Source: Actinomycetes bacterium
GTDB taxonomy: Bacteria; Actinomycetota; Acidimicrobiia; Acidimicrobiales; Acidimicrobiaceae
Assembly (NCBI GenBank): GCA_021799875.1
Contig: JAJYZP010000005.1
Coordinates: forward strand, 1 to 64,000
DNA length: 64,000 bases
Reading direction: 5' to 3'
Shown here: positions 41,918-51,930 of the stretch, piece after piece
Layout: each line of letters begins with the position of its first letter
Numbering within the stretch: the first letter of the stretch is position 1
Translations under genes and position numbers: made by a program
The notes under the pieces: generated by a model
Seen by the model: only the letters and a program-made list of their open reading frames with translations
The model's database searches: none
What the model was told of the DNA's origin: nothing

Positions 41918-42008
41918 GTGTCGGCAGAGCTGTCGTTGCACCAAGCACTCCTGCGGTTTAGGAGCGCTTGAGACCTCCCGGAGGGAGGTCTTTGCATTTC
42001 TCCGGGAG
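41918..42008 (+). promoter_or_regulatory. ilvB leader with mutually exclusive hairpins and possible leader peptide
   Basis: A 9-bp perfect stem with a GGA loop joins 41971-41979 to 41983-41991 and is followed by a weak T-rich stretch (TTTGCATTT). The segment 41975-41983 (CTCCCGGAG) is instead exactly complementary to 42000-42008 (CTCCGGGAG), which contains the ilvB SD (GGGAG, 8 nt before the ATG at 42017). Only one of the two stems can form. A 17-codon frame from GTG 41918 (MSAELSLHQALLRFRSA) contains four Leu codons and ends at 41971, on the first base of the stem. An attenuator or SD-sequestering switch is inferred. Confidence 0.5.
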
Positions 42009-42016
42009 ATAGTGAG

Positions 42017-43714
42017 ATGAAGCTGACAGGAGCGCAAGCGCTCATCAAGTCGTTAGAACTGCAAGGTGTCGAAGCAATCTTTGGCCTGCCGGGTGGCGCG
42101 ATCCTTCCCGTCTACGATCCTTTGCTCGAGTCTTCGATTCGCCATATCCTCGTGCGTCACGAGCAGGGTGCTGGCCATATGGCCGAGGGCTATGCGCAGG
42201 CCACCGGTCGCCCGGGAGTGGCGATGGTGACATCGGGACCGGCGGCGACCAATATCGTGACGCCGCTCGCCGACGCATACATGGACTCCATCCCGTTAGT
42301 TGTCATCACCGGACAGGTGGCAGCCTCGGTGATCGGTAGTGACGCCTTTCAAGAGGCCGACACCACGGGAATCACCATGTCGATTACTAAACACAACTGG
42401 TTGATAACTGATCCATACGACATCCCTCGGATCGTGCGAGAGGCATTTCACGTCGCAACTACCGGTCGGCCCGGTCCGGTCGTCATCGACTTCCCGAAAG
42501 ATATTGCGACCGGTGAGTTGGAGTGGTATTGGCCCAAGTCGATAGACCTTCCAGGGTATCGACCGACAACAAAGGGTCATCCAAAGATGATTCGTGAGGC
42601 GTTATCTCTCATTTTGCAAGCGGAACGCCCAGTCATCTACGCTGGTGGCGGGGTTATTCGAGGTCGTGCCTGTGAGGAGCTGGTAGCGTTCGCGGAGCGG
42701 ACCGGCATTCCAGTGGTGACGACCCTGATGGCTCGAGGCGCAATTCCTGACTCCCACCACCTCTGTCTAGGCATGCCGGGTATGCACGGCAACTACACGG
42801 CCGTCACCTCGCTGCAGCGAGCGGATCTCTTGATTACCCTTGGAGCGCGCTTTGACGATCGAGTTACGGGCAAGGTCAGCGCGTTTGCACCGAACGCCAA
42901 GGTCATTCATGTCGATATCGATCCGGCCGAGCTCGGAAAGATTCGGCGACCCGACGTGCCTATTGTTGGAGACGTGCGGCAGGTTGTTGCGGAGTTTCTC
43001 CGGGGGCTTGGTGAAGGAGATCTCGGCCAACAGGCCGATCTTGCGCCCTGGTGGGCACAGCTCGAGCAGTGGCGAAAGGCGTACCCATACACCTACGATC
43101 GAACCAATGAAGCTCCACCAATCAAACCTCAATTCGTAGTGGAGACCTTGAATCGGATGGCGCCTCCAGATACGATCCTCGCCTCTGGTGTGGGTCAACA
43201 TCAGATGTGGTCGTCGCAGTACTGGAGCTTTGAAGGCCCAAATCGGTGGATTAACTCTGGCGGTCTCGGAACAATGGGTTTTGCGATTCCTGCCGCTATT
43301 GGAGCCAAGGTCGGTCGTCCCGAGTCGACAGTTTGGGCGATCGATGGTGACGGGTGTTTCCAGATGACGGCTCAGGAGCTCGTTACTGCAACGACCGAGC
43401 GGATCCCGATCAAGGTAGCGATCTTGAACAACGCTTATTTGGGCATGGTTCGCCAATGGCAGGAGATGTTCTATGAGGAGCGATACTCTGAGGTCTACCT
43501 CTCTCCCGACCTGCCAGACTATGTGAAGTGGGCCGAGGCGATGGGGTGTGTCGGCATGAAGGTCGAAGACCCAAGTGAGGTGGAGTCGGCGATAGCGAAG
43601 GCGAACTCGATCGACGATCGACCGGTTGTGATTGATTTTCGCACCGATACCTCCGAGAAGGTCTTTCCAATGGTGCCCTCAGGTCACTCAAATGACGATA
43701 TTGTCCTCGGTTAG
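42017..43714 (+). CDS. ilvB: Acetolactate synthase large subunit
   Basis: 565 residues, ThDP-dependent. N-terminal [17 protein letters not shown] and [18 protein letters not shown] give the catalytic Glu region; the ThDP motif is [16 protein letters not shown] through [14 protein letters not shown]. It makes acetolactate or acetohydroxybutyrate, the first common step of valine, leucine and isoleucine synthesis. ATG at 42017. ilvN follows after 9 bp and ilvC overlaps ilvN by one base, giving an ilvBNC operon downstream of the structured leader. Confidence 0.96.
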
Positions 43715-48519: not shown

Positions 48520-48565
48520 AGCGTGACGTGTCGATTCTCTCAGGGAGTGATCGACACGTCACGCT
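48520..48565. terminator. Perfect 16-bp stem between convergent PadR and leuA genes
   Basis: Arms 48520-48535 and 48550-48565 (AGCGTGACGTGTCGAT and its complement) are perfectly paired around a 14-base loop. The leuA stop codon (48540-48542) lies in the loop and one arm is leuA coding sequence. No T-run follows on either strand. It could serve as a bidirectional U-less terminator. Confidence 0.5.
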
Positions 48566-50087
48566 GCTCTAACCTAGTGCGCATACGCACCAGACGGTTG
48601 AGACCGTCAAGGTAGGCCTTGGCCGCAGCTTCGACGACATCGGTCGAGATAGCTCGTCCAGAGACTTTTAGCCCGGTGGAGGATTCGAGCTGTACAACTG
48701 CCGTTCCGACCGCGTCTACTCCTCCGGTGAGAGCTGTGATCGAGAGAGACGTGAGACGAGCCTCTAATTTGGTGGCCTCTGAAAGTGCTTGTGCTGCCGC
48801 ATCGAGCATGCCGTTTCCGGTAGCTGTGGTCGTCACGGATTGATGTTGAGAGGTCACGGTCACGGTTGCTGTCGCCAGGTCCGTCGACGACCCCGATACT
48901 GCAAGGTTGTCGAGCTGGAAGAAAGAGTCTTCGTGGACTCCCACCTCCTCCGTAACGATTGCTTCGATGTCTGCTTCGGTGATCTCTACTTTCCGATCGG
49001 CCAGGTCTTTGAACCGTTGAAACGCTGCGTTCAAGGCGTCACCCTGGATCGTTAAGCCCATTTTTGCGACGGTATCGGAGAAAGCATGGCGTCCGGAGTG
49101 TTTGCCGAGAACGATCTGAGATGCAGTCTGTCCAACACTCTCTGCGGCGATGATCTCATACGTCGAGCGATTCGAGAGCACACCGTGTTGGTGGATACCT
49201 GATTCGTGTGCGAACGCGTTGCGACCGACGACGGATTTATTGTATTGGACTGGGTATCCAGTCAATCTGCTGACGAGCCTGGAGGTTCGCGCGAGCTCCT
49301 CGGTCTTGATCTGCGTAGTTGCATTGGCGAAGATGTCGGAGCGGATCGTGAGTGCCATGACAACCTCCTCGAGTGCGGCGTTTCCGGCGCGCTCTCCGAG
49401 TCCATTGATGCAGACCTCTACCTGGCGCGCTCCGTTTTGGACTCCGGCAAGGGAGTTGGCGGTTGCGAGGCCGAGGTCGTTATGGCAGTGAGTCGAGATG
49501 ATGTACTCTCCGTGTATCTCCTTGGAGATATTGGCGATGAGGTCGCCGAACTCCCACGGGATACCGTAACCGACGGTATCGGGGATATTGAGAGTGGTTG
49601 CTCCGGCATCAACGGCACATTGCAGTACCTCTAACATGAAGTCATAGGGTGTTCGGGTTGCATCTTGTGGCGAAAATTCAACGTCAGCAGTGTGCTCTCG
49701 AGCGCGAGATACACCCGCTTTCGTCTCGGCAAGTACTTGGCTTGGGGACATCTTGAGCATGTGTTCCATGTGTGAAGGGCTCGTGGAGATGAAGACGTGA
49801 ATGCGTGCCTTATCAGCGTCTCGGAGCGCCTCCCAACAACGGTCAACGTCAGAGAGATGAGTGCGTGAGAGCGCTGCGATAGTCGGTCCTTGGACCGAGC
49901 GGGCAATGGCTGCGACCGCCTCAAAGTCGCCTTGCGATGCAACTGGAAAACCGGCTTCGATGTAGTCGACGTTGAGGCGAGCAAGTTGCTCTGCTATCTC
50001 TAGCTTCTCTGCGGCATCGAGGGAGATGCCGGGCGACTGCTCCCCGTCTCGAAGCGTGGTATCGAAGATGATGATTTTCTCTTGCAT
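48540..50087 (-). CDS. leuA: 2-isopropylmalate synthase
   Basis: 515 residues. IIIFDTTLRDGEQSPGISLD carries the metal/substrate residues of the TIM barrel, HCHNDLGLATANSLAGVQ the His pair, and GLGERAGNAALEEVVMAL the G-loop; a C-terminal LeuA allosteric domain (LSSITALTGGVDAVGTAVVQLE region) gives leucine feedback. It condenses acetyl-CoA with 2-ketoisovalerate. ATG at 50087 has AAAGGAG upstream; the longer in-frame reading to 50168 passes through the attenuator terminator and is not the start. Expression is probably controlled by the leader peptide and terminator just upstream. Confidence 0.95.
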   Translation of the reverse strand: MQEKIIIFDTTLRDGEQSPGISLDAAEKLEIAEQLARLNVDYIEAGFPVASQGDFEAVAAIARSVQGPTIAALSRTHLSDVDRCWEALRDADKARIHVFISTSPSHMEHMLKMSPSQVLAETKAGVSRAREHTADVEFSPQDATRTPYDFMLEVLQCAVDAGATTLNIPDTVGYGIPWEFGDLIANISKEIHGEYIISTHCHNDLGLATANSLAGVQNGARQVEVCINGLGERAGNAALEEVVMALTIRSDIFANATTQIKTEELARTSRLVSRLTGYPVQYNKSVVGRNAFAHESGIHQHGVLSNRSTYEIIAAESVGQTASQIVLGKHSGRHAFSDTVAKMGLTIQGDALNAAFQRFKDLADRKVEITEADIEAIVTEEVGVHEDSFFQLDNLAVSGSSTDLATATVTVTSQHQSVTTTATGNGMLDAAAQALSEATKLEARLTSLSITALTGGVDAVGTAVVQLESSTGLKVSGRAISTDVVEAAAKAYLDGLNRLVRMRTRLEQRDVSITP

Positions 50088-50142: not shown

Positions 50143-50176
50143 ATAAAAAAACCTCCTGGCGCAAGCACAGGAGGTT
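50143..50176 (-). terminator. Intrinsic terminator/attenuator in the leuA leader
   Basis: On the minus strand AACCTCCTG (50176-50168) and CAGGAGGTT (50158-50150) form a perfect 9-bp stem with a 9-base loop, followed directly by a run of T (TTTTTATT). It is located 56 bp before the leuA ATG and after a Leu-codon leader peptide, so it fits an attenuator rather than a gene-end terminator. Confidence 0.8.
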
Positions 50177-50200
50177 CGACGACCGCAGGGGCGATCGTCG
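50177..50200 (-). promoter_or_regulatory. Upstream hairpin of the leuA attenuator
   Basis: CGACGATCGC and GCGGTCGTCG pair over 10 bp with one G-U wobble and a 4-base loop. It abuts the leader-peptide stop on one side and the terminator stem on the other, the position expected for an anti-antiterminator or pause hairpin. Confidence 0.6.
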
Positions 50201-50242
50201 TTACATAAGTAGTAGGTTCGAGGTGATACTCACCGCTGGCAT
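50201..50242 (-). CDS. leuL: leuA leader peptide with three consecutive Leu codons
   Basis: Thirteen codons from ATG 50242 encode MPAVSITSNLLLM, stop TAA. The Leu codons CTA CTA CTT are contiguous and lie right before the stop. No SD precedes the ATG; TAGCAT 7 bp upstream matches a TANNNT -10 box, so translation from a leaderless transcript is possible. Classical ribosome-mediated attenuation by leucine is inferred. Confidence 0.7.
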   Translation of the reverse strand: MPAVSITSNLLLM

Positions 50243-50358
50243 GAACGAGATGCTAGCACACTTCAGTAGTGCGGCGGCCTCCTATACGATGGAGGAGAGC
50301 GATATGGTTCTGACTCGGCCTCTCGATCGGCCGTTGAGACCCCGGTCGGCCTCGAGAT

Positions 50359-51930
50359 CTACGAGCACGAGACCGATCGGGCATAGATGATTCCCTCGGC
50401 GCTGTCGAGTTGGTCGATGATCTCTTTAGGAACCTCTGACCCCACCGCCAAGATCATGAGCGCCGTTCCGTCAGACTCTGTGGGTGATACACCCATAGAC
50501 GAGATTGAGATTCCTGCTTCTCCGAGAACGGTGCCGACCAGTCCGATCTTGCCGGGGCGATCATCGTTACGCACCGCGAGCATGTGTGCCGACGGAGGGA
50601 CCTCAACACCGTGACCGTCGACTTCGACGATTCGGGGTTCCGAGGCATTTCCGATGAACGTTCCGGAGACCGAGTGCGCCGGAGTCCTGAGCGTGACGAG
50701 CGAGACGTAGTGTTGACGTGGAGTAGCCGTGGTGGTCTCAGTGACCTCAAGGCCCCTCTCTGAAGCGAGTTGGGGGGCATTGACGTACGATACCGGTTCG
50801 TTTGTCCCGGCGGCAAAAATACCTTTAAGAGCCGCAAGGGTGAGGATTCTCGTGTCTTCGCCTGCCAGAACCCCTTGATACTCGATGTCGAGTCGTTCTG
50901 GGAGTCCGCCGTTGAGTGTTGCGAGGAAGCGACCAAGGGATTCGGTGAGACTGAGAAATGGCTTGATGACATCGGAAGCTTCGCCGGCATCGACGTTGAC
51001 CGCAAAGGGTACGAAGTCTCCACGAAATGCAAGAAGCAGTTGCTCTGCGATCGTGACGCCCGCCTTATCTTGTGCCTCTGAGGTTGAGGCACCGAGATGA
51101 GGGGTCACGACGACGTTCTCGAGGGTAAGGAGCGGTGAGTCCGTCGGTGGTTCTGACGCGAACACGTCGAGAGAGGCGCCACCCAACTGTCCGGAGACGA
51201 GCGCATCGTAGAGAGCGGCCTCGTCGACGATTCCTCCTCTCGCAGCATTGATGATGCGGAGACCTGGCTTGGCCTTCGCAAGCAGTTCTTTGTCGATGAG
51301 GCCTAGCGTTTCCTTCGATTTGGGAAGGTGAATGGTAAGAAAATCGGAGGTGGCGACGACCTGGTCTAACGCCATGAGCTCGACTCCCATCCTTCGCGCA
51401 CGCTCTTGCGAGACGTAGGGGTCATAGGCGACGAGCGACATTCCAAAGGCGAGGCATCGTTGGGCGACTAGCGCCCCGATTCGGCCAAGTCCGACGATTC
51501 CGATCGTCTTTCCGTAGAGCTCGACACCCTCCCACTTCGATCGCTCCCATCGTCCAGCAACAAGAGCATTGTGAGCTTGTGGAACGTTTCGAGCTTGAGA
51601 GAGCAGGAGTGCCATAGTGAGCTCTGCCGCGGAGAGGATATTTGATTGGGGAGCATTTACCACCATGACGCCGCGACTCGTTGCGACTGCGACATCAACG
51701 TTGTCGAGACCGATACCCGCGCGACCGACTACCTGGAGAACATCGGCAGCCTCAAGAACCTCTCGAGTTACCTTGGTGGCAGAACGAATAATCATGGCGT
51801 GCACGCCTTTGACGGCATCTAAAAGGCTGGTGGGGCTCGTGGTGAGATCGATAATGACCTCGTGCCCCGCCTTTCGTAGGAGTTCGAGTCCGTTGTCGGC
51901 TATCTCTTCGGTCACCAATATTTTTGCCAT
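50359..51930 (-). CDS. serA: D-3-phosphoglycerate dehydrogenase (long type)
   Basis: About 523 residues from ATG 51930 (GGAGA upstream); a start seven codons earlier is less likely. NAD motif GIVGLGRIGALVAQRCLAFG, substrate-binding Arg region NAARGGIVDEAALYDAL and catalytic His in VVTPHLGASTSEAQ are present. An intervening (ASB-like) domain and a C-terminal ACT domain (NDDRPGKIGLVGTVLGEAGI) make it the long, serine-regulated actinobacterial form. It oxidises 3-phosphoglycerate, the first step of serine synthesis; serC lies 1.4 kb away. Confidence 0.95.
   Translation of the reverse strand: MAKILVTEEIADNGLELLRKAGHEVIIDLTTSPTSLLDAVKGVHAMIIRSATKVTREVLEAADVLQVVGRAGIGLDNVDVAVATSRGVMVVNAPQSNILSAAELTMALLLSQARNVPQAHNALVAGRWERSKWEGVELYGKTIGIVGLGRIGALVAQRCLAFGMSLVAYDPYVSQERARRMGVELMALDQVVATSDFLTIHLPKSKETLGLIDKELLAKAKPGLRIINAARGGIVDEAALYDALVSGQLGGASLDVFASEPPTDSPLLTLENVVVTPHLGASTSEAQDKAGVTIAEQLLLAFRGDFVPFAVNVDAGEASDVIKPFLSLTESLGRFLATLNGGLPERLDIEYQGVLAGEDTRILTLAALKGIFAAGTNEPVSYVNAPQLASERGLEVTETTTATPRQHYVSLVTLRTPAHSVSGTFIGNASEPRIVEVDGHGVEVPPSAHMLAVRNDDRPGKIGLVGTVLGEAGISISSMGVSPTESDGTALMILAVGSEVPKEIIDQLDSAEGIIYARSVSCS

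Follow-up and report, generated by a model that had tools for sequence, protein, structure and literature searches.

On the minus strand of the 64,000 nt stretch of DNA analysed here (the window), a gene for 2-isopropylmalate synthase (leuA) is preceded by a short leader ORF ending near three consecutive leucine codons, a first hairpin (A) and an intrinsic terminator hairpin (T). The coordinates are given in Table 1. The ORF, its CTA CTA CTT codons, the 10-bp hairpin, the 9-bp T-tailed terminator and the leuA ATG had been listed in a preliminary description of this DNA, and all are present in the sequence. The parts are tightly packed, with a gap of 0 nt between the stop codon and hairpin A and a linker of 0 nt between A and T. 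The leader region folds better than any of 200 dinucleotide shuffles (z = -5.8 and -5.5; 0 shuffles as good). An internal GTG (50233) is a possible alternative start for the leader ORF, and the ATG is favoured because it lies 7 nt after the TAGCAT sequence. The upstream neighbour on the same strand, an ORF that looks like serA, ends at 50359, 116 nt before the leader. Terminator T was overlooked by a simple terminator scan of the window, as that scan permits loops of 3–8 nt only, and an Rfam scan of the element matched no family, even at E 5.

Table 1. Features of the leuA upstream region in the window.
Feature	Position (nt)	Strand	Basis or remark
Candidate -10 box TAGCAT (TAnnnT), preceded by TGc	50250–50255	-	Sequence; TAnnnT common in relatives
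Leader ORF MPAVSITSNLLLM*, 13 codons; ATG 50242-50240, stop TAA 50203-50201	50201–50242	-	Probably leaderless
Control codons CTA CTA CTT (Leu-Leu-Leu)	50207–50215	-	CTN-only runs kept in relatives
Hairpin A, CGACGATCGC/GCGGTCGTCG, 10 bp, -15.7 kcal/mol	50177–50200	-	Fold and covariation
Terminator hairpin T, AACCTCCTGtGC/GCCAGGAGGTT, 9 bp + bulge + 2 bp	50150–50176	-	Fold and covariation
U-run 3' of terminator T	50145–50149	-	T run is 50151-50145 including the stem end
leuA, 2-isopropylmalate synthase, putatively controlled gene; ATG 50087	48540–50087	-	TIGR00973, above curated cut-off

Within the family and the order (Acidimicrobiales), relatives of leuA were located in 60 genomes, and 42 upstream regions were read. 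All 42 share the layout of leader, hairpin A and terminator T. The leaders are usually 11–13 codons long and end with a Leu run, 0–2 other residues and the stop codon; hairpin A (8–13 bp) begins -3 to +2 nt from the end of the stop codon, and is joined to a terminator of 11–14 bp by a linker of 0–4 nt (0 in 26/42). The same spacing holds in a set of 110 leuA-type elements, part of which was parsed automatically: the gap between stop codon and A is -3 to +2 nt in every one, and the A–T linker is 0 nt in 64 and 0–4 nt in 105. An architecture scan was positive for 40 of the 42 real leuA upstream regions and for 2 of 168 shuffled ones, so that the arrangement is far beyond chance. The preliminary description had proposed looking for relatives that lack the Leu codons or the terminator; the relatives keep the codons, both stems and the terminator, and the proposal survives this comparison.

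The proximity of the serA-like ORF, which ends on the same strand just upstream, might be taken to mean that T is an unregulated terminator, for example the end of a serA transcript, accompanied by a chance ORF. The sequences 5' of the element differ among relatives, however, while the element stays put before leuA, and both the Leu codons and the position of the stop codon are conserved. As the leader codons also track the downstream gene (see below), this reading can practically be dismissed.

Both helices are supported by covariation. Among 16 alignable members, 97.3% of cells are paired and nine pairs are doubly changed, values equalled by 0 of 500 shuffles, and pairing drops to 33–52% when the structures are slid along the alignment. 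In helix 1 (hairpin A), both sides have changed in six of nine pairs. Two simple nested hairpins suffice for the covariation observed in the element. The sequence of hairpin A varies freely among relatives and that of terminator T far less; readings of the element as a Rho, protein-binding or riboswitch site were rejected, given this freedom of A to vary. The terminator (50176-50150 and its relatives) keeps CCTCCTG...CAGGAGG across genera, with 7 of 12 pairs invariant in the 16 members. These conserved arms resemble anti-Shine-Dalgarno and Shine-Dalgarno sequences, and no reason for their conservation was found; pairing of the Leu codons with the terminator 3' arm (AGGAGG) is not above that of swapped partners (p = 0.18).

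A first covariance model (R1), built on the raw MAFFT alignment, missed hairpin A and was replaced by a model with an explicit structure based on 16 well-aligned members (R2). With the covariance model the window gives one match, and the source genome as a whole also gives one. Within the class, 144 of 296 genomes match; across the phylum, matches were obtained in 41 of 396 genomes, of which 16 lie outside the class (two of these are partial, terminator-only matches). The Acidimicrobiales relatives include the cultured Ferrithrix thermotolerans (DSM 19514), which has the same element.

The leader is probably translated from a leaderless transcript. A Shine-Dalgarno core precedes none of the 42 leaders, compared with 35 of the 42 leuA starts, and in 29 of the 42 loci a TAnnnT box ends 5–9 nt 5' of the leader start, a per-position frequency about 12-fold over background. 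This spacing matches that of leaderless promoters in Streptomyces, where TAnnnT lies 6.3 nt from the transcription start site (PMC8079986). The choice of leucine codons is also strongly skewed. The 142 Leu codons near the leader ends comprise 71 CTT, 38 CTA, 24 CTC, 9 CTG and no TTA or TTG, where the leuA genes of the same genomes would lead one to expect 24.8 CTT, 14.2 CTA, 46.2 CTC, 32.7 CTG and 24.1 TTR. A skew as extreme arose in 0 of 20000 simulations, a statistic that ignores relatedness among the genomes. CTT serves as the final Leu codon in 29 of 42 leuA leaders, and 21 of the 42 have Thr as their C-terminal residue, preferences that may matter for stalling or for slow release at the stop codon.

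The same architecture occurs 5' of ilvB, cimA and leuS, and the codons at the end of the leader change with the gene: Leu before leuA and leuS, Val/Leu/Ile before ilvB, and Ile before cimA. Matches to the leuA model include four loci before ilvB, with leaders ending in VLILM (L088), VVVLVT (L090), VVLVVVV (L092) and ILVLT (L111), one before cimA (IIIN, L086) and one before leuS (LLRL, L099). The element is also present 5' of another leuA type that is distantly related to the first, TIGR00970 (L070, L085), and outside the class it is found before leuS (LLL), ilvB and leuA, gene names here being judged from sequence. Four genomes each carry two elements with different codons (L085/L086, L087/L088, L089/L090 and L091/L092). 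A model-free scan of the class upstream of family-defined genes covered the 30 best-scoring loci per search for ilvB and cimA: Val/Leu/Ile-rich leader ends were present in 19 of the 30 ilvB loci and Ile runs (III/IIII) in 9 of the 30 cimA loci. The negative control, trpE, gave 1/30 positive, which had no Trp run. For leuS within the class, the scan returned a single match in 30 that had no meaningful run and was judged spurious. No line of evidence for decoding of the leader as a sensor of the end product is stronger than this switching of codons with the downstream gene, and it argues strongly that the codons serve to sense amino acids. It is very likely, then, that the element is a leucine-sensing attenuator, and it would belong to a family of BCAA attenuators present in the Acidimicrobiia and in some other Actinomycetota.

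With a leader, control codons and a terminator all in place, the element might be expected to work by classical three-way attenuation, in which a stalled ribosome releases an RNA segment to form a 2:3 antiterminator with the 5' arm of the terminator, the scheme known from E. coli trp and leu. This was examined by folding the transcript as far as the terminator loop with the ribosome footprint masked, and calculating how much free energy it costs to free the terminator 5' arm. The footprint was set at 12 nt past the first A-site base, the E. coli value; both footprint and RNA energies are approximate. Six E. coli attenuators (leu, trp, his, thr, ilv and phe) served as controls, and in these the cost was 7.9–13.3 kcal/mol with the ribosome in mid-run and 0–3.6 with the ribosome at the stop codon. 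In the 110 leuA-type elements the median was 0.47 kcal/mol mid-run (maximum 4.5) and 3.3 at the stop. Native upstream segments paired more strongly than swapped ones in the E. coli controls (p = 0.016–0.03), whereas in the 110 elements swapped segments paired equally or more strongly than the native ones (p = 1). The 28 ilvB/cimA elements likewise showed no upstream segment that sequesters the terminator 5' arm on stalling. The low mid-run cost, together with native pairing that does not exceed swapped pairing, indicates that in these modelled folds there is no conserved antiterminator duplex. Some members do offer an alternative pairing of a few kcal/mol with the ribosome at the last Leu codon or at the stop, but the classical scheme is an improbable account of the element. 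A duplex between the 3' arm of A and the 5' arm of T was considered for the ribosome at the stop codon; its median of 3.3 kcal/mol is not above that of swapped (p = 0.99) or shuffled (p = 0.76) sequences, and it appears not to be selected. Of the stalling-controlled attenuator put forward in the preliminary description, ribosome-dependent control by leucine is thus strongly supported by the relatives and by codon switching; the search for an antiterminator that binds the 5' arm of the terminator gave a negative result.

The geometry is inverted with respect to the textbook arrangement. Hairpin A has a median of 10 bp, of which 10, 9 and 7 remain while the ribosome occupies the first, middle and last control codon, respectively, and 1 remains once it occupies the stop; a stalled ribosome leaves A in place, and only a ribosome at the stop codon melts it. 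No structure other than hairpin A distinguishes the stalled from the finished state of the ribosome. The first three nucleotides of T are paired upstream with a median probability of 0.17, exceeding 0.5 in only 21 of the 110 elements, and thermodynamically T is free to form while A is formed.

If starvation turns these genes on, as physiology would require of leuA, ilvB, cimA and leuS, hairpin A is the best candidate for the structure that prevents termination. That leucine limitation relieves termination would follow from this physiology. The chance that A is the antiterminating element appears evenly balanced. With leucine plentiful, the ribosome would reach the stop codon and cover the 5' arm of A, leaving A unformed, whereupon T would close and transcription stop. 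When Leu-tRNA is short, the ribosome would stall two to four codons earlier, with its footprint ending at or just past the stop codon, and A could fold. That A and T are almost always 0–4 nt apart suggests a steric clash at the base of T: the folded hairpin would prevent the basal pairs of T from closing inside the RNA exit channel, and with T kept open RNA polymerase would read into leuA. Such steric blocking by an abutting hairpin draws on general knowledge of intrinsic termination, and a literature search returned no direct precedent for an upstream hairpin acting in this way. Taken as a whole, a ribosome-dependent leucine attenuator of leuA in which hairpin A blocks terminator T on stalling is probably the best explanation.

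Alternatively, A could be a pause hairpin that keeps ribosome and RNA polymerase in step, with antitermination brought about by another factor or by ribosome–polymerase coupling. Pausing of polymerase at the first hairpin is known for E. coli trp, and A is placed such that a paused polymerase would stand within the 5' arm of the terminator. In the ilvBNC leader of C. glutamicum, H1 has been proposed to cause pausing (PMC11857589). Pausing alone, however, explains neither the relief of termination by stalling nor the short A–T linker, and this role is considered unlikely to be the answer.

The steric model would describe a class of attenuator that has no antiterminator duplex. Its switch would be a hairpin anchored at the stop codon and abutting a terminator with which it shares no bases; this hairpin would sterically deny T its basal pairs on stalling and melt with the ribosome at the stop. 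We put this generalisation forward tentatively, as a serious possibility that falls a little short of an even chance. If it is true, an untranslated leader would be ON, unlike in trp-type attenuators. Were hairpin A the switch, mutually exclusive base pairing would not be required for attenuation, adjacency being enough, and a simple modular design for amino-acid sensors would be available.

Leader-peptide control of actinobacterial BCAA genes is already known (PMC1262725, PMC4046766, PMC8079986, PMC10272879). The leuA attenuators of other actinobacteria to which the preliminary description had appealed are the LEU elements of Streptomyces, Mycobacterium and Corynebacterium, in which a pseudoknot pairs Leu codons with the Shine-Dalgarno sequence and there is no terminator (PMC1262725); they are a different thing. 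They do share the gene and the Leu-run leader 5' of it, which in S. lividans is leaderless (PMC8079986), so one could suppose that here too the Leu codons pair with the leuA Shine-Dalgarno sequence and that control is translational or exerted by a bound protein. The Acidimicrobiales element has an intrinsic terminator, however, and precedes ilvB and cimA as well, and the pairing of the Leu run with the leuA Shine-Dalgarno sequence is as strong with swapped partners (-6.44 kcal/mol) as with native ones (-6.55 kcal/mol; p = 0.39), which makes such a mode of control highly improbable.

By analogy, the closest relative of the leuA element appears to be the ilvBNC attenuator of C. glutamicum, a 'fast attenuator' with the ilvB-II motif, the model of which has mutational support (PMC11857589, PMC10272879). 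Its BCAA leader is near-leaderless, and in both systems a hairpin adjoins the base of the terminator, the antiterminating role of A being a proposed one. In C. glutamicum the antiterminator lies directly against the terminator, with a GCC triplet common to both (PMC11857589), an additional anti-antiterminator overlaps the start, and most of P1 is spanned by the ORF. In the leuA element, by contrast, no nucleotide belongs to both A and T, and A starts at the stop codon. The E. coli leuL and trpL leaders (Rfam Leu_leader and Trp_leader) have in common with it a leader ORF with a run of control codons, a first hairpin, an intrinsic terminator and a biosynthetic gene. They differ in having the control codons inside strand 1 of the first hairpin and in the 2:3 antiterminator, neither of which is present here; the control codons end 5' of hairpin A, outside its 5' strand. 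A further likeness is to the Streptomyces leuS leader MRAVRLLLSEPR (PMC8079986), which is leaderless and carries LLL followed by a hairpin and a U-run. Streptomyces leuS is a classical attenuator, for which both an antiterminator and a terminator were drawn by Seliverstov et al. (PMC1262725), and it is likened to the present element by description. Elements before leuS with the layout of the leuA element were found in other actinobacterial classes. As the leuA elements described previously differ, and a literature search on Acidimicrobiia, attenuation and leader peptides found no paper, the element is regarded as a new variant within known attenuators.

Several other loci are of related interest. 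One genome (G138) carries an element before a TIGR00970-type leuA (L070) and another before a leuA about 63% identical to that of the window (L081). In a second genome (G373), a weaker model match (L148) shows the two-hairpin layout before an aminotransferase-like gene, with a leader-like ORF, VKLTRRSNK, that has no codon run. In the window itself, cimA (TIGR00977; 60609-62141, plus strand) starts within about 20 nt of the end of the upstream ORF and has no leader. A weak model match at 41942-41993 (plus strand), 5' of the window's ilvB (match 42020-43537), corresponds to a pair of adjoining hairpins that resemble A and T; the first of the pair has no leader with BCAA codons running up to it, and the pair is possibly a decayed copy of the element carried by 19 of the 30 ilvB loci.
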